This document shows, one piece after another, positions 1,272-13,073 of a DNA stretch of 64,000 bases (within the stretch, counting starts at the first letter, position 1; each line of letters opens with the position of its first letter). Position numbers and translations under genes: made by a program. Source of the stretch: a virus; IMG/VR virus record IMGVR_UViG_3300021389_000014, positions 1 to 64,000 of that record. One strand, written 5' to 3'. The notes below the pieces were generated by a model that was not told the DNA's origin, did no database searches, and saw only the letters and a program-made list of their open reading frames with translations.

Positions 1272-2123
1272 ATGTCTGAAAATCCACTATCATCACTATA
1301 TCGTTCAAAATCAAATTATGTATCTCTGCCAAGCAGAGGTAGATTTTACACAAGTGGGATAAAATTATCAATAGATGGAGAACTAGGTGTTATGCCTATG
1401 ACCATCAAAGACGAAATAGAGTTAAAATCGCCAGATTCTCTTTTCAATGGAACTGCTTTAATTAATGTTATAAAAAATTGTGCACCAGATATTGTTGATG
1501 TATCTGAAATACCAATTTGCGACATAGACTCTATTCTTTTTGCAATAAAAGCAGCAAGTGAAGAAAATATGGAAATAGAAGTAGAATGCAAATCATGTAA
1601 AGAAATAAACAGCTATAATTTGAATTTAAATCGCTATCTATATACTGCAAAGCAAATACCAGATGATAACACCATTATTCACGAAGATGGAATCGTATAT
1701 TTAAAACCTCATACGCTGGATACCGTGTCAAAGCAAAAAATACAAGATTTTAAAATTACTCAAATGGAAATGCAATTAAAAGATAAACTGTTAGAAGAAA
1801 ACAATAATGAAATTTTAAATGAAATAACAAATAATCTGAAAGTATTGTATAACGAAACAACAGAAATAACTATTGATATTATGGTCGATAGCATATACAA
1901 AATATCAATCCCATCAAAGGATATAGAAGTAGTAGATAAAAATCATATAAAAGAGTGGGTGTTGAATATCAATCGCGATTTAGTCAAAAATATAAACAAA
2001 AAGATAGGATCACTTAATAAAAATGGGATCAATAAAGAAATTGAAATGTCATGCACTAGCTGCGAAAATAAATTTAAATCTGAATTGGAGATAAATCCTT
2101 TAAATTTTTTCACAAACGAGTAA
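1272..2123 (+). CDS. 26: gp26-like baseplate hub assembly protein
   Basis: 283 residues, with ATG preceded by AGGAG. The N-terminal segment with LPSRGRFY and the MTIKDE stretch resembles the T4 gp26 family (T4_baseplate, PF12322). Two CxxC pairs, CKSC near residue 106 and CTSC near residue 262, could hold a metal ion and are typical of the longer homologues in non-coliphage T4-like viruses. In T4, gp26 is needed to assemble the baseplate hub. The gene lies between a tape-measure-like gene and a small gene in the same orientation, which fits a hub-assembly cluster. The family call is by motif recognition only. Confidence 0.65.
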   Translation: MSENPLSSLYRSKSNYVSLPSRGRFYTSGIKLSIDGELGVMPMTIKDEIELKSPDSLFNGTALINVIKNCAPDIVDVSEIPICDIDSILFAIKAASEENMEIEVECKSCKEINSYNLNLNRYLYTAKQIPDDNTIIHEDGIVYLKPHTLDTVSKQKIQDFKITQMEMQLKDKLLEENNNEILNEITNNLKVLYNETTEITIDIMVDSIYKISIPSKDIEVVDKNHIKEWVLNINRDLVKNINKKIGSLNKNGINKEIEMSCTSCENKFKSELEINPLNFFTNE

Positions 2124-2128
2124 TCAAT

Positions 2129-2344
2129 ATGTACGGAAGTGAATTAAATTCGTTTCTTAATAATATGATTACTCAAAGAGAACAAATAAAGAAAAATATA
2201 ATCGATCTATCTATATATTCCAATGGTTCCATCAGACTCGAAGATATGTATAATCTTACAACTATAGATGTTGCCAATATTGAAAAGACAATATTGGAAA
2301 AAATAAAGATGGATAAAGGAATCAAATCACAACAAATGCTCTAA
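2129..2344 (+). CDS. small protein, possibly a gp51-like hub assembly factor
   Basis: 71 residues, five bases after the gp26-like gene and evidently co-transcribed with it. It is helical and charged, with no membrane segment or signal peptide. A short protein at this position in T4-like phages is often the hub assembly factor gp51, but I see no diagnostic motif, so that identity is inferred from position alone. A strong terminator follows 40 bases downstream, making this the last gene of the unit. Confidence 0.5.
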   Translation: MYGSELNSFLNNMITQREQIKKNIIDLSIYSNGSIRLEDMYNLTTIDVANIEKTILEKIKMDKGIKSQQML

Positions 2345-2384
2345 GATGTAAATCTCAAAAACTCAATTAAGAAGAACTAAAAAT

Positions 2385-2424
2385 AAAATCACTAGAAAAG
2401 TATTTTTTCTAGTGATTTTTGTTT
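2385..2424 (+). terminator. rho-independent terminator
   Basis: Inverted repeat AAAATCACTAGAAAA / TTTTCTAGTGATTTTT followed by a T-rich tract, just after the small gene ending at 2344. Confidence 0.8.
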
Positions 2425-2425
2425 A

Positions 2426-2444
2426 TTGGTTACGTAGTAACCAA
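2426..2444. repeat. perfect 8-bp inverted repeat
   Basis: TTGGTTAC GTA GTAACCAA: an 8-bp stem with a 3-base loop, directly after the terminator. Function unknown. Confidence 0.6.
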
Positions 2445-2486
2445 TGTGCAGAATAACTAAAGAACATTATATCATAATAGCATAAG

Positions 2487-2517
2487 AGATACTTGTTCAT
2501 TTCATTCACAAGTATCT
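2487..2517. repeat. 10-bp inverted repeat
   Basis: AGATACTTGT and ACAAGTATCT separated by 11 bases, in the gene-free gap between convergent genes. There is no clean T tract after either arm. Confidence 0.6.
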
Positions 2518-2520
2518 TTA

Positions 2521-2574
2521 TGAATCATCTATATATTCACTACGCTTATGCTTCGTTCATATATAGATGATTCA
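2521..2574. repeat. perfect 16-bp inverted repeat
   Basis: TGAATCATCTATATAT (2521-2536) is the exact reverse complement of 2559-2574, with a 22-base loop. It is the longest perfect inverted repeat I noticed in the window. It could be a strong RNA hairpin or a protein-binding or replication site. Confidence 0.7.
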
Positions 2575-2625
2575 TTTATTGAGATTCTTAATTGATTAGA
2601 TATATGATTATATATTTGAATACTG

Positions 2626-2631
2626 TATAAT
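2626..2631 (+). promoter_or_regulatory. consensus -10 box (TATAAT) before the candidate RNA
   Basis: A perfect TATAAT lies about 10 bases before the point where base composition changes (about 23% GC to about 39% GC). No good -35 box is visible 16-18 bases upstream, so this is a weak or activator-dependent promoter candidate. Confidence 0.4.
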
Positions 2632-2639
2632 ATACAATA

Positions 2640-3120
2640 TAAGATAATGAATATCATTACCTTGGATTTTGAACACACTTTGCCTTCCGACGGGCAAAGC
2701 ATGTTCAGACTAGTGGTGTTATTACCTCATCATCATCACACTCTATACAGATCGACCATGTAACGTCTGGAAGAGGCGGTTATCCTGTACCTCTTTACGA
2801 TCTAACTTCCCTACTCAGTATTATTATTATAATACCTTTTGTGACAGCGCATCTCATTGTATAAAGCAGTATAGATTACCGTATACGAGAATGTAGGTTC
2901 CAAGTGATCAGGAGAGCCTACTCATTTTCAGGAGAGTCACCCCTGATACTTACAAGATTATATCTTGACAAAAAACGAACTTTCCGGAATTCTTTTCATC
3001 AGAAAGCACAACTTACCATTCCACTGGCTACGAGCATTACCTCGGCTAGATTTCGGCAGATAAAAAACATTATCATTTGCGTTGCTATATGTTTATAAAG
3101 GGTTCTGTGTTAGCCATATT
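2640..3120 (+). ncRNA. candidate large structured noncoding RNA
   Basis: No credible gene lies here, yet GC is about 39% (186 of 480 bases in 2641-3120, counted by hand) against about 23% in the 180 bases before it. Closely packed complementary segments include 2645-2650/2654-2659, 2671-2675 plus 2678-2684 with 2693-2699 plus 2702-2706, 2749-2754/2798-2803 enclosing 2771-2776/2790-2795, 2818-2824/2829-2835, 2853-2863/2882-2890, 2902-2912/2942-2951 and 2953-2958/2962-2967. Possible long-range closures are 2643-2649/3068-3074 and 2710-2716/3021-3027. Size and phage context recall the ornate GOLLD and ROOL RNA classes, but I cannot match a consensus. Strand is inferred from the TATAAT at 2626. 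Confidence 0.55.
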
Positions 3121-3158
3121 AGTTATAAGTTAATTTATACCATATATAATGATTCGGG

Positions 3159-3674
3159 TCAAGTCCTTTTACACATTTTTTCAAAAGAATTTGCATTTTT
3201 TTCAAAGAAATCTTCAAACTTAGTTAAACGCCAAGTTCCCCAATTTTCGGATTCATAATCTACAAATCTTCCACATTCAAAATCCTGTGGCAACTGATAA
3301 GCAACATAACGACCAATGTAATCAAATTTCATAAAAATTATGTTTACATCTCCCTCGTCAGATACTTCCATAGTTTGGTCTATGAAATTCTCTAAATCCG
3401 GTATACGGTCGGTAGATAACAATTTGTGAAATTGAAATTCCTTATAACGCTTACATTCACAATTAAAATGAATCCAATCGTCAGGAGGAACAATATCACC
3501 CTTGTGTGAGCGTATTTGTCCCTCTGTGAGCGTATTTTTTCTAGAGGAATTTTTACCCCCTATGTATGCGCCCGACGCCTGAATTCTATGAAAACTGTCA
3601 CTATATAAATCTGAAAGATACTTTGCTACTTCCCTCTCAAATCCACTGCCTTTAACTTTACTTTTACTTGCCAT
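3159..3674 (-). CDS. PD-(D/E)XK-type nuclease, resolvase-like
   Basis: 171 residues from the ATG at 3674. An upstream in-frame start at 3710 is rejected because it lies inside the terminator hairpin of gp46. The N-terminal KGSGFEREVAKYLS helix carries a conserved Glu. GDIVPPDDW supplies the metal-binding Asp and NCECKRY the E-x-K, together the PD-(D/E)XK nuclease core arranged as in Holliday-junction-resolvase-like enzymes. A late-type TATAAATA sits directly upstream. Encoded after gp46/gp47, it would fit branched-DNA processing during recombination or packaging. The exact substrate is not determinable. No clear Shine-Dalgarno sequence is visible, and an initiation very near the transcript 5' end is possible. 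Confidence 0.65.
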   Translation of the reverse strand: MASKSKVKGSGFEREVAKYLSDLYSDSFHRIQASGAYIGGKNSSRKNTLTEGQIRSHKGDIVPPDDWIHFNCECKRYKEFQFHKLLSTDRIPDLENFIDQTMEVSDEGDVNIIFMKFDYIGRYVAYQLPQDFECGRFVDYESENWGTWRLTKFEDFFEKNANSFEKMCKRT

Positions 3675-3679
3675 ATAGT

Positions 3680-3687
3680 TATTTATA
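3680..3687 (-). promoter_or_regulatory. late promoter (TATAAATA)
   Basis: Perfect T4 late -10 element on the minus strand, between the gp46 terminator and the nuclease start at 3674. Transcription would begin almost at the ATG. Confidence 0.6.
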
Positions 3688-3694
3688 TAGTTAA

Positions 3695-3718
3695 TAAAAA
3701 AGGGGCACAAAATGCCCC
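3695..3718 (-). terminator. rho-independent terminator of the gp55-gp47-gp46 unit
   Basis: GGGGCA / TGCCCC stem with a 5-base loop, followed on the minus strand by a T run, eight bases past the gp46 stop codon. Confidence 0.85.
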
Positions 3719-3725
3719 AATTTTC

Positions 3726-5483
3726 TTAATTTTCTTCTTCTATAGAATATGCAGTAAATCCGTTTTCTTTTGTAACAGTAAGTATGTTATTCACCCTACC
3801 CATCAACTCTTCTCGGTGGGAAATTAGGAATATAGATTTGTTTCTTTCACGACACATGGTTTTTAATAGTTCAAGTGCAGCTTCAACTCCGTTTCCGTCT
3901 AGGCCATTGTCCATCAGTTCGTCAACTGCCATAAAGTTTATACTATAATTCATACTTTCAAAAACATCGCGGAAACTCCAGCTTAGACCAAGAATAAGAC
4001 GATTTCTTTCGCCACGGCTTAAATTGTCGAAATCTAAATCACGTCCAAGTTCTGTAATATCTACATTAAGATCACTTTGGAATTTAACTTCGTGCGGTAA
4101 TCCTAATTTTTCAAGATAATATGCAAGGCGATTGTTAAGATATACTAAATTTTGTTCAATGATTTTTTTACGAATAAAGCTATCTTTATTTGTAAGTAAT
4201 TTTAATAAGAAGTCTTGATGAGTTTTTAAGTCTGTAAGTTCGTTTAGTTTATCCCAACTAATAGGTTTTAACGCAGTGTTTTTAAGTGTTTCAATTTGTT
4301 CACTATACGGGTCTGATGCTTCTGTTTTTTCTTTTATCTTATTTTCAACATAAGAAACTGAATTTTTATGTTCGTAAGCATCATTTATTGAACTATAAAA
4401 GGTAGATGGCTTTTCAATTATACTGGTATGACTATCTAGTTGTTCTGTTAACCCTGAAAGTTCCGTTGCAAGTATTTCTATTTTTTCATTAAGAGATTTT
4501 ATAGATTCACTTTTATCACCAATAAGAGACAGATGATTTTCATCATGCAATTTCTGTCCACAAGCAAAACATTCGTGATTTTGTAGTTTTTCTAATTCAT
4601 TTTCGTATTTAATTTTTCTTTTATCTAGTTCACTAAGTTGTTTTGTTTTCTCGTTGTGTTTAGATTTTAAATCACGATGTTCTGAAACTGACTTTTCATA
4701 GGACGAGAGTAATTCGTGGTTTTTTATTTCAGTTTCAATATCAATTTTCAGCAATTGTTCAAGGGTTTTTGAAAATTCTTCCAAATCGTTTTCTTTGGTA
4801 GTTTCCCAAATACGCTTTCTGCGTTCTAAATCTTTGATACTTTTTTCTATCTGATCATTTGCTTCGCTTACTGCTTTGTTTTTGTATTCTTCTTCTTTTA
4901 TACGGTCCTTTGTATCTTTTATAAGCTCTTTTAAAACAGTAGCCTTTTCACTAAGCTGTGTTATGCCTAATAATTGCTCAATAGTATCACGTTGTTCTGC
5001 TGCTCTCATAGAAAGAAATGGTTCTGTAAATGTATTAAGACATACTAAGTGTTTAAACATAGTATGACTCATTCCTATTAACTTTTCAATTTCTTCTTGA
5101 GTAAGACGATTTTCCCCTTGTTGTTCTTCGGTTTCGTCTTCCATATCGTTTACAAAGAAACGCAAAGCAACAGGCTTGCGTCCGCGTTCAATACGATACT
5201 TATTTCCGTTTACTTTAAATTCTAGTGTAACCAACATATTTTTATTATTGGTTATGTTTACCATATTATCTTTTTTAATATTGGTTAGAGCAGAGCCGTA
5301 TAGTGCAAAAGAAATGGCGTTAAGCATAACACTTTTGCCAACACCATTTCTGCTACCATTTCCGCCCAAATCTAAGTTATTACCGATAACAAGGGTAAGA
5401 TCACTGTCTTCAAAGTTTATGGCTTGGGTAATGTTACCCACGCTCATAAAATTCTTCATTGTGACATTTTTAAAAGTTATCAT
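3726..5483 (-). CDS. 46: gp46 recombination nuclease ATPase subunit (SbcC/Rad50 type)
   Basis: 585 residues, close to T4 gp46 (560). Walker A is NGSRNGVGKS at ~42-51. Two long coiled-coil arms flank a zinc-hook motif CFAC at ~304. The ABC signature NLSRGERNRL is near 490 and Walker B FMAVDEL near 515. With gp47 it forms the Mre11/Rad50-like complex that resects DNA ends for recombination-dependent replication and host DNA breakdown. The start codon overlaps the gp47 stop by four bases, so the two are translationally coupled, as in T4. A terminator follows immediately. Confidence 0.95.
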   Translation of the reverse strand: MITFKNVTMKNFMSVGNITQAINFEDSDLTLVIGNNLDLGGNGSRNGVGKSVMLNAISFALYGSALTNIKKDNMVNITNNKNMLVTLEFKVNGNKYRIERGRKPVALRFFVNDMEDETEEQQGENRLTQEEIEKLIGMSHTMFKHLVCLNTFTEPFLSMRAAEQRDTIEQLLGITQLSEKATVLKELIKDTKDRIKEEEYKNKAVSEANDQIEKSIKDLERRKRIWETTKENDLEEFSKTLEQLLKIDIETEIKNHELLSSYEKSVSEHRDLKSKHNEKTKQLSELDKRKIKYENELEKLQNHECFACGQKLHDENHLSLIGDKSESIKSLNEKIEILATELSGLTEQLDSHTSIIEKPSTFYSSINDAYEHKNSVSYVENKIKEKTEASDPYSEQIETLKNTALKPISWDKLNELTDLKTHQDFLLKLLTNKDSFIRKKIIEQNLVYLNNRLAYYLEKLGLPHEVKFQSDLNVDITELGRDLDFDNLSRGERNRLILGLSWSFRDVFESMNYSINFMAVDELMDNGLDGNGVEAALELLKTMCRERNKSIFLISHREELMGRVNNILTVTKENGFTAYSIEEEN

Positions 5484-6502
5484 AGTTTAGAATAAATCTC
5501 CATTAATTTTTTGTTATTTATTACATCGCTATCTACTGCACTAAGTTGATTCACAACAATTTGATCTACATTTTCAATTTCTAAATCACTATCGGTTTTC
5601 CAATCGTCGCTGTCTGCTTCAATTTTCCTTGGAATAAGTGCTAGTTCTCGTAGATTGTATTGTGTTAAAAAAGTGTCTTTTATGTAGTTCGCTTCTTCGT
5701 AAGAAATTGGTATGTCTAGTGTAACACGACAATAGGATTTTGGCAACAAGTATTTTTCAGGTTCGTCAATAAGTGTTGAAAGATTGATAGTAACATATTT
5801 TGGTCCATCTGGCCAATCTATGTAAGTTGGTGTCTTGTCCCATTCTAACACCAACATACCTCTTTCATCGTCCCAAGCATCTGCATAATTATGACCAAAC
5901 GGCGAACCAACATAATTTACTTTTCCGCCACTTTGTCTTTTATGAAAGTGACCACTAAAAACATAATCTGGAATAGTGAAATCTTCTTTTTTCAAACCAC
6001 CATGGTCTGGCATTTCTACCATCGCATTCATTTTAAATTTAGGTAATTCAAAATGTCCGAAAACATATTTTGCTTTTAGTTTTGGTATCTTTTTCCATTC
6101 ATCTTCTACCAGCCAAGGAACCAATGCTACATTTTTTGTAACAATTGGTTTCTCGTTTATGACAGTAATGTTCGGAAATAGTTCTGCAAAAGGAAAGCTG
6201 AATAAATCTCGCTTTTCACGATAATACAAATCGTGGTTTCCGGTTAGGACGTACACCTGTTCAAAACTTTCGCTTAATTTTTTAAGACCAGTGTATCCGT
6301 ATTTTAGAGTAGATATGTTTATACTATTTCTTTGGTGGTTCCAGTCTCCTAAAAAGATGCAAGTTTCGCAATCGTTTGACTTTGCCTGTTCGCAAAACCA
6401 TTCCAAAAAATCTTCGCAATCTTGGTTATGGATTTTTGAATTATTTTTAAGTCCATAATGTATATCGCCAAAAATTGCAGCTTTCTTAAATAAATTAGCC
6501 AT
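5480..6502 (-). CDS. 47: gp47 recombination nuclease subunit (SbcD/Mre11 type)
   Basis: 340 residues from the ATG at 6502, which overlaps the gp55 end by 8 bases and has AGGA about 12 bases upstream. The in-frame ATG at 6529 would overlap gp55 further. Calcineurin-type phosphoesterase motifs appear in order: GDIHYG, GDWNHQR, GNHD, GHFE and GHFHKR. These ligate the two manganese ions of Mre11-family nucleases. Partner of gp46 encoded immediately downstream. Confidence 0.95.
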   Translation of the reverse strand: MANLFKKAAIFGDIHYGLKNNSKIHNQDCEDFLEWFCEQAKSNDCETCIFLGDWNHQRNSINISTLKYGYTGLKKLSESFEQVYVLTGNHDLYYREKRDLFSFPFAELFPNITVINEKPIVTKNVALVPWLVEDEWKKIPKLKAKYVFGHFELPKFKMNAMVEMPDHGGLKKEDFTIPDYVFSGHFHKRQSGGKVNYVGSPFGHNYADAWDDERGMLVLEWDKTPTYIDWPDGPKYVTINLSTLIDEPEKYLLPKSYCRVTLDIPISYEEANYIKDTFLTQYNLRELALIPRKIEADSDDWKTDSDLEIENVDQIVVNQLSAVDSDVINNKKLMEIYSKL

Positions 6503-7379
6503 TAATGCCAAAATCCTTTTGTTCTTCAATTACTTTGTTGTCGTATTCTTCGCGCCTTGCTTCCTGTTGTTCTTTTTCATCATTGAACTGGCGAGTATAG
6601 CTAGGCATATATCCGTTGTCTTGTAATAAATCATCGCGAATATCTTGAACTTTCTTTTCATTATTTAATACACCCAAAAATGCGTTATTTAATGTTGTCG
6701 TAAAATATGCAAAAGGATTAGAGCCTTTGCTTTCGTCAAAATAAAGACCAAATTTTGAAAGTTGCAGTAGTGCGTTGCCTTTCATTTCTTCTAAGTAAGT
6801 ATAACCTCTAAAGTTTCCTCGCATAGAATATCTGTCAACCAATAACATCATCATTTTTCCAAGGTGGTCGTTTATTTTTCCTTTTGTGAGAGAAAAATGC
6901 CCTGTTTCTAAATCTCCTTCCCAATGACTTCTCACTGCTTCGTGCCATTCTCCATTCTCTAGCGCAAAATGTTTGTATGGTGGAAAGTTACATCTGATGT
7001 GATAATCTGCTTCTGTTTTTGGTGTTTTCTTTTTTGAACTTGAAGGAATGTGATCAAAACACATTAATCTTATTACTAACGGAGTTTCGTTCGCTTCTTC
7101 TTCTGTTACTGAAAATTGAGATAGCTTTGGTTTTGTTTTTGTTTTCAATTCTCCGCTTTCCCATTTTTTTAATTCTATTTCGTATTTGTTATAAGTCAAT
7201 CTTTTATATTTGTTTTCTATAGTTTCGTCTATTTTTTCTTTTGTTAATTCAGATAAATCGCGAACTATATTGTCGTAATAAAAATATTTTTTATCTTCAA
7301 TATAACAAAAACTCATCTTACTGTTGTGTATTTGTTTTAATAATTCTCTGTTATTTAAATAGTTTGTTCTTTTGGCCAT
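6495..7379 (-). CDS. 55: gp55-like late sigma factor
   Basis: 294 residues from the ATG at 7379, preceded by AAGGAGT; an upstream in-frame ATG lacks this site. Residues ~185-265 read as a minimal sigma region 2: a helix with LVDRYSMRGNFRGYT, then MKGNALLQLSKFG, FDESKGSNPFAYFTT and NAFLGVLNNEKK, matching the T4 gp55 core. gp55 lets host RNA polymerase recognise TATAAATA promoters, which occur across this window. T4 gp55 is shorter (185 residues); the extra ~110 N-terminal residues are lysine-rich and of unknown role. A perfect sigma-70 promoter precedes the gene, so late sigma is made early. Confidence 0.9.
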   Translation of the reverse strand: MAKRTNYLNNRELLKQIHNSKMSFCYIEDKKYFYYDNIVRDLSELTKEKIDETIENKYKRLTYNKYEIELKKWESGELKTKTKPKLSQFSVTEEEANETPLVIRLMCFDHIPSSSKKKTPKTEADYHIRCNFPPYKHFALENGEWHEAVRSHWEGDLETGHFSLTKGKINDHLGKMMMLLVDRYSMRGNFRGYTYLEEMKGNALLQLSKFGLYFDESKGSNPFAYFTTTLNNAFLGVLNNEKKVQDIRDDLLQDNGYMPSYTRQFNDEKEQQEARREEYDNKVIEEQKDFGING

Positions 7380-7398
7380 TATGACTCCTTTTATATAC

Positions 7399-7427
7399 AT
7401 TATACCATACTTTTTTAAAAATGTCAA
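7399..7427 (-). promoter_or_regulatory. perfect consensus early promoter for gp55-gp47-gp46
   Basis: On the minus strand, -35 TTGACA (7427-7422) and -10 TATAAT (7404-7399) are separated by exactly 17 bases. Confidence 0.9.
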
Positions 7428-10838: not shown

Positions 10839-13073
10839 ATGTCAATGAGGTCAGTTAACAGATTTCAAAAAAAAGTAAGACAACAATATAATCAAAATTT
10901 GATTAATATGGGGGTCACTATTCCGGCAGGGATATATCTCGGAGAAGTTACACAGAACAGTGATCCAGATTATCCAGATATGAGAGTGAAAGTTCACGTT
11001 TTTCGTTTACTTCCTGCTATAACTCCTCAAAATTCTAAAGAAGTAACCGACGATGAACCAGAATTGGGAAGTATTTGGTGCCAAAGAATGTCACCATTTG
11101 CTGCAAATACTGATGATTATTCTTATGGCATGATGGGTCCACCTCCTGAACCTGGAAATACCGTCATTGTTGCATATACTGGTGATTATGCTAGTGGAAT
11201 TATACTTGGTGTTTTGCCGGACCTTAAAAAGAACCAAGGTTTATTTACTGGCGGACAACCAGCAGCGGAAACGTCAGAAGGTATTAATCCTGCAAGTGAG
11301 CCAGATAGTCAAGGAAATCAAACTGCAATACCAGTTGTAGAAGGAACTGCTCCAGATTTATTAAAAGATGATCCTATGAGAAGACCATCTCAGCGATTTA
11401 ATCCAAGAAATACAAGCATTAGTGCAGCGGGAGGAAATCACGTTACTGTTAGTCCAGGTGATCGTGAAGATGGAACTGGCGCAGGTGTTAGAATGGGAAC
11501 AGGACGAGGTGCTCAATTGTTGATGGACAATCGTAGTGATACGATTTATATGAACAATGCTTCCGGAAATGGTTACATATCTATGGATACAAACGGTAAT
11601 ATAGATATGTATTGTGAGGGAACTTTTAGCGTACACGCGGTTGGTGGATTTAATTTTCACACCGATAACAGTTTTGTAATGCAGGCTGATGATGGAATTA
11701 ATATGAAATCTCTTGGCGGCAGTGGTGTAAAAATACAAGCTGCAGGAGGCAATTTGGATTTATCTATACTTAACGATGTTTATATAACTGCACAAGGTGG
11801 TGAGATACATGCCCTTGCTGGCAGTAATATAATAATGAAAGGTTCAAACATTCATCTGAACGGCCCCGATGCTACGCGTGCCACCCCGCCTACAGTTTCT
11901 TCCCAAATGGGAAACACTGGCGTAACTCAAAGCGTAAGTGGTCGTGTTCCAGAAGCAGAACCGTGGAGAGGGCATACGACATATAGTAGAGATGCTGACC
12001 AATCTGGTAACAGAAGTGAATATTCTACTGCACCTGGAGCGGGGATTGACCCAAGTCGTGTAGGAAATGAATATCCGCCAATACCAGAAAATTCTTCTAA
12101 TTTGGTATTTTGGCAAAACGGAGTAGATAGAAGAATTAGTCAACAATTATTTGATGCGCTTGAAAATATTGCTAGAGAATATGGAAAGGCATTAAAAATA
12201 ACAAAAGGTTATGTTATACCTTCTCGTTCTGGTGGAACTAGCAATGCAGATAATAGTTTGCATATGACTGGCCAAGCAGTAGACATTATTCATGCTGAAG
12301 GTAGACCGGAAATTTTACGAGATGAAGTTTTGCAAATTATAGAACTAGCTAAAAACAATGGTATAGGTGGTATAGGGGTTTACAATGATAGAAGACCAGA
12401 TGCTGCATTTGCAAACGAACTACATTTTGATTTAGGTCGTGAAAGAATTTGGGGAGAATGCGCTGATGGAACATTGCAATACGAATGTTTACCTACCGCT
12501 ATACAAAATGAGGCCAGTGAATTAGGATATGATCCAGAAATTCCGATAGAAGATGCTCGATTTGCAACAGGAAACGGAGCAGTCAATGTAGAAGATATAT
12601 CTGGTAATTCCAACGCAGAAAAATTGTATAATTATTTTGTAGAAGAAAGAGGCTATTCCCCGCAACAAGCTGCTGGTGCAGTTGGTAGTTTGATGGGAGA
12701 AAGTTATGAAAGACTAGACCCAACTGCGGTAAACAGTATAGGTGCAACTGGAATTGCGCAATGGCTTGGTCCAAGAAAAAATAATTTATATGAATTTTCG
12801 GCAAATCCAAACGCATTTGATCCTAATTCTTTTGATAGCACTTCTCCGCTAGACCCATTGTCTTTTGACACGCAATTGCAATTCTTAGATTGGGAATTAA
12901 ATAATGATTCTTACGAATCTAGAACAGACAGTCATATGGTTCAAGCTACCAATGCTGCGCAAGCCGCAGAAATATGGACTAGAATTTATGAGAGGCCATC
13001 GGCTGCGGAAATTTCTTCATCTTTGCCCACTAGACAACAATACGCCAACAACGTGTTAAGTTCCTTTTACTAA
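10839..13073 (+). CDS. 5: gp5-like tail spike with M15 peptidase and lysozyme domains
   Basis: 744 residues with four parts. Residues ~25-135 form an OB-fold like gp5/VgrG N-termini (GIYLGEVTQN, PDMRVKVHVF, GNTVIVAYTGDYASGIILG). Residues ~200-345 form a repetitive beta-helix-like needle (GNIDMYCEGTF, GSNIIMKGSNIHLNGP). Residues ~420-530 carry an M15-type zinc peptidase with SLHMTGQAVDI and ELHFDLG. Residues ~590-744 match the phage tail lysozyme type (Phage_lysozyme2, PF18013): QQAAGAVGSLMGES, then GATGIAQWLGPR. In T4 gp5 the lysozyme sits between the OB-fold and needle; here both enzymes follow the needle. It probably punctures the outer membrane and cuts both sugar and peptide bonds. Confidence 0.75.
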   Translation: MSMRSVNRFQKKVRQQYNQNLINMGVTIPAGIYLGEVTQNSDPDYPDMRVKVHVFRLLPAITPQNSKEVTDDEPELGSIWCQRMSPFAANTDDYSYGMMGPPPEPGNTVIVAYTGDYASGIILGVLPDLKKNQGLFTGGQPAAETSEGINPASEPDSQGNQTAIPVVEGTAPDLLKDDPMRRPSQRFNPRNTSISAAGGNHVTVSPGDREDGTGAGVRMGTGRGAQLLMDNRSDTIYMNNASGNGYISMDTNGNIDMYCEGTFSVHAVGGFNFHTDNSFVMQADDGINMKSLGGSGVKIQAAGGNLDLSILNDVYITAQGGEIHALAGSNIIMKGSNIHLNGPDATRATPPTVSSQMGNTGVTQSVSGRVPEAEPWRGHTTYSRDADQSGNRSEYSTAPGAGIDPSRVGNEYPPIPENSSNLVFWQNGVDRRISQQLFDALENIAREYGKALKITKGYVIPSRSGGTSNADNSLHMTGQAVDIIHAEGRPEILRDEVLQIIELAKNNGIGGIGVYNDRRPDAAFANELHFDLGRERIWGECADGTLQYECLPTAIQNEASELGYDPEIPIEDARFATGNGAVNVEDISGNSNAEKLYNYFVEERGYSPQQAAGAVGSLMGESYERLDPTAVNSIGATGIAQWLGPRKNNLYEFSANPNAFDPNSFDSTSPLDPLSFDTQLQFLDWELNNDSYESRTDSHMVQATNAAQAAEIWTRIYERPSAAEISSSLPTRQQYANNVLSSFY

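Follow-up and report, generated by a model that had tools for sequence, protein, structure and literature searches.

What occupies a gap of some 815 bp that lies between two convergent phage genes and holds no credible open reading frame? In the stretch of viral DNA analysed here (64,000 nt, hereafter the window), an ORF scan places this gap at 2345–3158, and a composition scan across it shows the GC content climbing from 0.22–0.28 to 0.37–0.43 over ~2640–3119. The initial annotation had pointed to both features, correctly in each case, and had proposed that the gap holds a large structured RNA; homologues, covariation, pseudoknots and a covariance-model match now bear that proposal out. Predicted folds of both strands beat dinucleotide-shuffled sequences (z = -2.4 for the plus strand, -2.6 for the minus strand). 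The surrounding genes are listed below; ARAGORN found no tRNA in the 64-kb window.

1272–2123, plus strand: T4-type baseplate hub gene, convergent with the RNA (T4_baseplate, PF12322, 2.2e-14)
2129–2344, plus strand: small conserved 71-aa ORF that follows the hub gene; the related locus L002 has a counterpart of equal length
3159–3710, minus strand: PDDEXK_15 endonuclease gene, directly 5' of the RNA (PF24608, 1.8e-22; RusA-like resolvase in PHROG), with its likely start at 3671
3726–5483, minus strand: gp46, SbcC-like recombination subunit
5480–6529, minus strand: gp47, SbcD-like, with its likely start at about 6500
6495–7427, minus strand: late sigma factor, gp55-like (PHROG)

The nearest relative of the window is a 317,722-bp contig (G001), in which locus L002 has the same convergent gap with 70% identity over 558 nt. 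G001 carries three dispersed copies of the RNA (L002, L084 and L083), which sit beside unrelated genes. Its L002 locus also contains, at 400–2121 on the plus strand, a 573-aa homing-endonuclease-like ORF with repeated EKYGVDHYSKT units, which has the sigma factor gene on one side and gp47 on the other and is absent from the window. A motif derived from the window and the three G001 loci, GGCGGTYNNSCKRTACCNNNTTAC, occurs once in the window, where none would be expected by chance; among IMG/VR contigs, at least 119 stretches contain it. Among the matches listed, 105 had enough flanking sequence (53 clusters), and hairpin P-A of the conserved core (see below) could be fitted, by eye or by model, in all representatives except L183, which was a chance match and was taken out of the family. 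An exact, slightly narrowed version of the motif, which diverged copies could escape, had no match in 85,000 bacterial and archaeal genomes, and BLASTN searches of INPHARED with the window gap and the gaps of two relatives returned none either. Cultured phages were also reached by way of the adjacent nuclease, but in them this gene has another location, and a search of those loci yielded no RNA.

A core of ~155 nt could be aligned across 47 IMG/VR phage contigs (alignment A2), and it is this alignment that supplies the covariation among homologues for which the initial annotation had called. Over its 29 pairs, 87.9% of cells are paired, as opposed to 67.4% when shuffled, and 309 cells show changes on both sides. 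The covariation score is 0.560, compared with 0.215 (sd 0.011) for shuffles and at most 0.15 for slid structures. The core opens with hairpin P-A, which has a covarying 3-bp inner helix, and with an arm B whose loop pairs over a long range with the 3' end, forming a pseudoknot. It further contains hairpin P-C and a second pseudoknot, which joins the P-C loop to an upstream GCGUU. The placement of P-A and the long-range helix relied partly on complementarity, which favours both, while that of the second pseudoknot and P-C rests on fixed sequence anchors and is free of this bias. A covariance model (R1), whose training set included neither the window nor its 317-kb relative, matches the window on the gp46 strand and also retrieves L002, L083 and L084 (E 3e-7 to 3e-18). 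With this match, and with P-A, the long-range helix, P-C and the second pseudoknot all mapped in the window, where arm B is enlarged, the window RNA belongs to what we call type 1. Its mapped elements are as follows.

2731–2925, minus strand: conserved pseudoknotted core (cmsearch with R1, 48.7 bits, E 2.5e-8, model positions 1–156)
2893–2921, minus strand: hairpin P-A, outer helix GTAGG (2893–2897) with CCTAC (2917–2921), covarying 3-bp inner helix
2869–2875, minus strand: 5' strand of the long-range helix, within the arm B loop, hence a pseudoknot
2742–2748, minus strand: 3' strand of the long-range helix, TCTATAC with GTATAGA, partner 2869–2875; 6 of 6 pairs changed on both sides in A2
2771–2795, minus strand: hairpin P-C, AAGAGG (2771–2776) with CCTCTT (2790–2795), near-invariant GGUAC...AACCGCC loop
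2779–2806, minus strand: second pseudoknot, GTTA (2779–2782) with TAAC (2803–2806); 98.6% paired, three covarying pairs in A2

The long-range helix of this list is not one of the two closures proposed initially (2643–2649 with 3068–3074 and 2710–2716 with 3021–3027), both of which fall outside the helices tested for covariation and gain no support from it; the supported pairing is 2742–2748 with 2869–2875. The duplicated segments TCAGGAGAG and CCTACTCA are both present in the sequence as described, but as a repeat system they do not hold up, being partly pieces of the conserved hairpin at 2893–2921.

Many T4-like viruses, from fresh water and from the sea, carry the RNA at the same syntenic site. 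At the loci inspected, its usual 5' neighbour is a PDDEXK or SegE-type GIY-YIG endonuclease (PF19835) behind gp46, and the baseplate hub gene faces it, often together with a small ORF; in the window, likewise, the RNA lies 3' of gp46 and an endonuclease and is convergent with the hub gene. The 5' neighbour is co-directional with the RNA in 96 of the 98 loci with a called 5' gene. Called 3' neighbours are convergent in 64 cases and co-directional in 33, so that no single downstream gene recurs as a target for regulation. The PDDEXK protein led to 80 IMG/VR loci, L002 among them. Thirty of 32 R1 matches lie 3' of the nuclease and on its strand. The 26 weak matches in loci fetched only through their nuclease (E 0.017–0.87) all follow the 3' end of that gene closely and share its strand, a consistency that would not arise by chance. 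Most of these 26 represent a divergent type 2, whose own covariance model reciprocally retrieves type 1 members (E 1.6e-4 to 0.05).

Some divergent loci have sequence features of their own. Type 2 loci L059–L081 share a conserved CCTCCTTGAG ~100 nt 5' of the core, which resembles the anti-Shine-Dalgarno end of 16S rRNA; it is more likely a short CUC..GAG hairpin. Two divergent members, L067 and L019, combine strings like those of Rfam family RF01718 (GGGGACGGAA..CTATCCTTAACAGGACG) with a different core, and by these strings they possibly bridge subtypes.

Which strand is transcribed? Base-pair usage and folding both identify the structured RNA as a minus-strand transcript, on the same strand as gp46, as far as sequence can tell. 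Read on the minus strand, the 47-sequence core alignment contains 90 G-U cells and 21 A-C cells (p 2e-11, relatedness ignored), which argues for selection on a minus-strand RNA. Two subgroups each give the better consensus fold on that strand (-85.7 vs -63.5 and -130.6 vs -124.2 kcal/mol), and in pairs predicted on both strands the minus type of wobble outnumbers the plus type (69 vs 30 and 12 vs 8). Matches to RF01718 in relatives are on the minus-equivalent strand too, that is, the strand of the RNA family. Together with the covariance-model match, these observations favour the minus strand over the plus-strand reading with which the analysis began. The TATAAT box said to precede the RNA does exist, at ~2627 on the plus strand, but it lies beyond the 3' end of a minus-strand RNA and is therefore not its promoter.

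Around the demonstrated core, the ends of the RNA are placed provisionally, the 5' end from a promoter-like site and the 3' end from terminal hairpins.

2640–3127, minus strand: structured ncRNA gene of about 490 nt, running from ~3127 to ~2643 (covariance-model match, synteny with L002, GC rise)
3134–3162, minus strand: promoter-like site, TTGACC (3162–3157), 17-nt spacer, TATAAA (3139–3134), by consensus match only; expected start ~3127
2671–2706, minus strand: terminal hairpin with 15 continuous pairs on the minus strand by way of U-G pairs, interrupted on the plus strand
2380–2575, no strand assigned: palindromes at 2380–2424 and 2520–2575, beyond the 3' end of the RNA; similar palindromes flank homologues

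Comparable TTGACA or TTGACG boxes with a 17-nt spacer accompany all three RNA copies of G001. Across type 1 as a whole, promoter-like sites gave p 0.025 against control windows and 0.34 against the other strand; this is no convincing enrichment, and the idea that every member has a sigma-70 promoter ahead of it is not supported. Given this weak enrichment, most members may be processed from operon mRNA, with a role in the 3'-UTR conceivable. A hairpin equivalent to the one at 2671–2706 is found in most homologues, and the palindromes at 2380–2575 are probable bidirectional terminators. Palindromes with loops such as TTCAyTTCrTTCA / GAACGAAGTGAG recur 3' of the RNA, in this part of the window, in the flanks of L002, L083 and L084 and at many type 2 loci, and the window hairpin stretch 2469–2515 matches G001 12107–12154 at 88%.

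Does the RNA belong to a known family? The initial annotation had raised membership of GOLLD, ROOL or an intron family, or else a new class. Rfam matched nothing in the whole window at the gathering threshold, and no family scored meaningfully in the RNA part of the gap. In the gap GOLLD, ROOL and the intron families were absent even at E <= 10; nor was there any match to group I or group II introns, HEARO or RNase P (Rfam), or to tmRNA (ARAGORN). An RNase P-like reading, suggested by shared ACAGAG..AACC strings, was dropped as it had no Rfam signal. Of the two proposals a new class is thus the better one, with one qualification, which is that Polynucleobacter-1 (RF01718) corresponds to a fragment of some freshwater members. 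At 47–95 bits and on the same strand, this 141-nt model describes the 5' domain of freshwater type 1 members, which adjoins the conserved core on its 5' side; the model does not include the pseudoknotted core. It matches eight of 20 relatives tested and leaves 12 without a match; the window itself has none, either at gathering (37 bits) or at E <= 10. Weinberg et al. (2010; PMC2864571) tabulated the motif as 'Burkholderiales, fresh water/estuary' and did not assign it to any larger RNA of phages; among the open-licence papers searched, 'Polynucleobacter-1 RNA' is named nowhere beyond that table. The window RNA is thus in no complete Rfam family, and RF01718, a domain of some relatives, is its sole Rfam trace. 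We regard it as a new class of large ornate phage RNA as judged against the open-licence literature, and it may have been described elsewhere.

The likeness to known ornate RNAs is nevertheless instructive. Like the window RNA, GOLLD is large, ornate and phage-borne, with a conserved 3' part and a variable 5' domain; the window RNA differs in being shorter, in having no Rfam match and in lacking the tRNA neighbourhood that is typical, though not universal, of GOLLD. ROOL is similar in size, has multiple pseudoknots and also occurs in phages (PMC12286853), whereas the window RNA has no Rfam match to it and is not near tRNAs. Both GOLLD and ROOL form homo-oligomers that are RNA-only cages of unknown function (PMC12286853). 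Phage ICP1 produces an abundant orf-less transcript of ~800 nt, also large and non-coding, which sets a precedent for such a gap being the most expressed locus (PMC7567579); it lies at a different site, beside the lysis cluster, and the likeness drawn here is one of description.

A second ornate RNA is found at the equivalent site in cultured jumbo phages whose hosts include E. coli, Salmonella and Erwinia. Gaps of roughly 680–840 bp separate gp46/endonuclease VII from the hub gene in 121Q, Munch, pEa_SNUABM_47, BF, XbC2, XaC1 and CBB, and 40 records contain the gap sequence of 121Q, most often at four to five places each. In 14 aligned copies of the 121Q type, 46 of 72 predicted pairs show compensatory change. 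Their consensus fold favours the strand of gp46 (-142.0 vs -135.5), although strand-neutral wobble is balanced (13 vs 11), and TATAAT is present within 150 nt upstream in 13 of the 14 copies, which are related and not independent. The 121Q gap has only chance-level matches in Rfam, and the genome paper of phage CBB does not mention intergenic or non-coding RNA. In L232 (121Q copy B) and L235 (Munch copy A), a terminator-like hairpin followed by a T-run separates the RNA from its promoter-like site, directly behind the TATAAT box, with sequences GTGAC..GTCACCTTTTTTT and GGTAAAGG..CCTTTACCCTTTTT, as if both copies were attenuated. A similar hairpin and T-run (AGAGAC..GTCTCTTTTTT), located within the RNA, precedes the conserved 3' segment in about half of the jumbo-phage copies (columns ~529–548 of alignment A4) and is missing in the rest. 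In PA5oct (L206, 2600–3470) and Phosso (L210, 2481–3494) the equivalent site is a gap whose ORFs are tiny or absent; no model used here matches these gaps, which are possibly further subtypes.

The 121Q-type RNA resembles that of the window in its gp46–hub site, its gp46 strand, its multiple copies and its ornate structure, and it shares with type 2 a hairpin loop, ACAGAGCAACCCG / ACAGAGCAACC, that has an upstream GUUGC partner. In contrast, it has a different endonuclease, EndoVII, alongside on the opposite strand, and covariance models R1, R2 and R3 showed no cross-detection between the two. Since no covariance model links them, a shared origin of the two RNAs is put forward as a hypothesis, based on site, copy number and one common hairpin-pseudoknot module. 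We consider it conceivable, if rather doubtful, that there is one ancient RNA class at the gp46–hub junction of T4-like viruses, extending from aquatic phages to the 350-kb jumbo phages that infect E. coli and Salmonella, in which it would have multiplied to four to five promoter-driven copies. During infection it would form an abundant particle, made either of RNA only or of RNA and protein.

What might the RNA do? The reading we hold to be probable, with some reserve, is that this conserved pseudoknotted minus-strand RNA is stand-alone and trans-acting, is made during infection and, less certainly, serves as a scaffold or decoy rather than pairing with mRNA or controlling its neighbours. In the clade of the window it would be transcribed from its own promoter (TTGACC-17-TATAAA, 3162–3134, start ~3127), and/or arise by read-through from the sigma/gp47/gp46/nuclease operon, and its synthesis would end either at the terminal hairpins around 2643–2706 or at the palindromes beyond. 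The conserved hairpins, tied by two pseudoknots, could then form a rigid particle, which might work as scaffold or decoy alone, as homo-oligomers or together with a protein of host or phage; neither base-pairing with mRNA nor regulation of neighbours would be involved. We infer a separate, trans-acting RNA because copies adjoin unrelated genes, no downstream gene is constant, and promoter-like boxes accompany the RNA in the window clade and in jumbo phages. The idea of a scaffold, decoy or cage is weaker, and follows from the analogy to the RNA-only cages of GOLLD and ROOL. The extra jumbo-phage copies would fit an RNA needed in quantity.

The reading that competes best is a cis-acting 3'-UTR element of the gp47–gp46–nuclease transcript, which would stabilize the mRNA, block convergent transcription or provide feedback on the nuclease. 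Such a role gains from the fact that most members begin where a co-directional gene ends and promoters are not enriched family-wide: the RNA almost always starts near or overlapping that gene end, usually of an endonuclease, type 1 has no general promoter signal, and the RNA is placed at a convergent junction. We judge it unlikely all the same, as the upstream gene varies (PDDEXK, SegE-type, peroxiredoxin-like and others), distant copies stand beside unrelated genes in G001, as does the RNA of jumbo phages, and the pseudoknotted fold far exceeds a terminator.

A ribozyme or mobile RNA element, such as a degenerate intron or the guide RNA of a lost nuclease, might be suspected from the dispersed copies in some phages, the comparable complexity of catalytic RNAs and the adjoining nuclease genes. 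This seems improbable given that Rfam models of group I and II introns, HEARO and RNase P do not match, that the RNA occupies a fixed, intergenic orthologous site instead of being inserted in scattered places, and that the type of nuclease is not constant. Slightly less credence goes to a replication origin or primer RNA forming an R-loop like ColE1 RNA II, with several origins per jumbo genome. A structured RNA of about the size of RNA II, present in three to five copies round large genomes and adjoined by recombination genes, would suit that function, yet in phage 121Q neither GC-skew nor AT-skew has an inflection at any of the four copies and the skew changes elsewhere, a result that applies to the 121Q-type RNA only. 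That the gap holds only palindromes or other conserved DNA sites and no RNA is hardly credible: true DNA-like palindromes do adjoin the RNA at 2380–2575, but G-U use is strand-specific, the pseudoknots covary and R1 matches are placed consistently by strand.

To our knowledge, large ornate phage RNAs such as GOLLD and ROOL are few and their functions open. The RNA described here adds another class to them, with a spread among aquatic phages far wider than its sole Rfam trace, RF01718, had implied, and it corrects RF01718 to one domain of a larger RNA. Because phages able to grow on E. coli K-12 have a conserved multi-copy RNA at the corresponding site, the role of such RNAs is testable in a laboratory strain.
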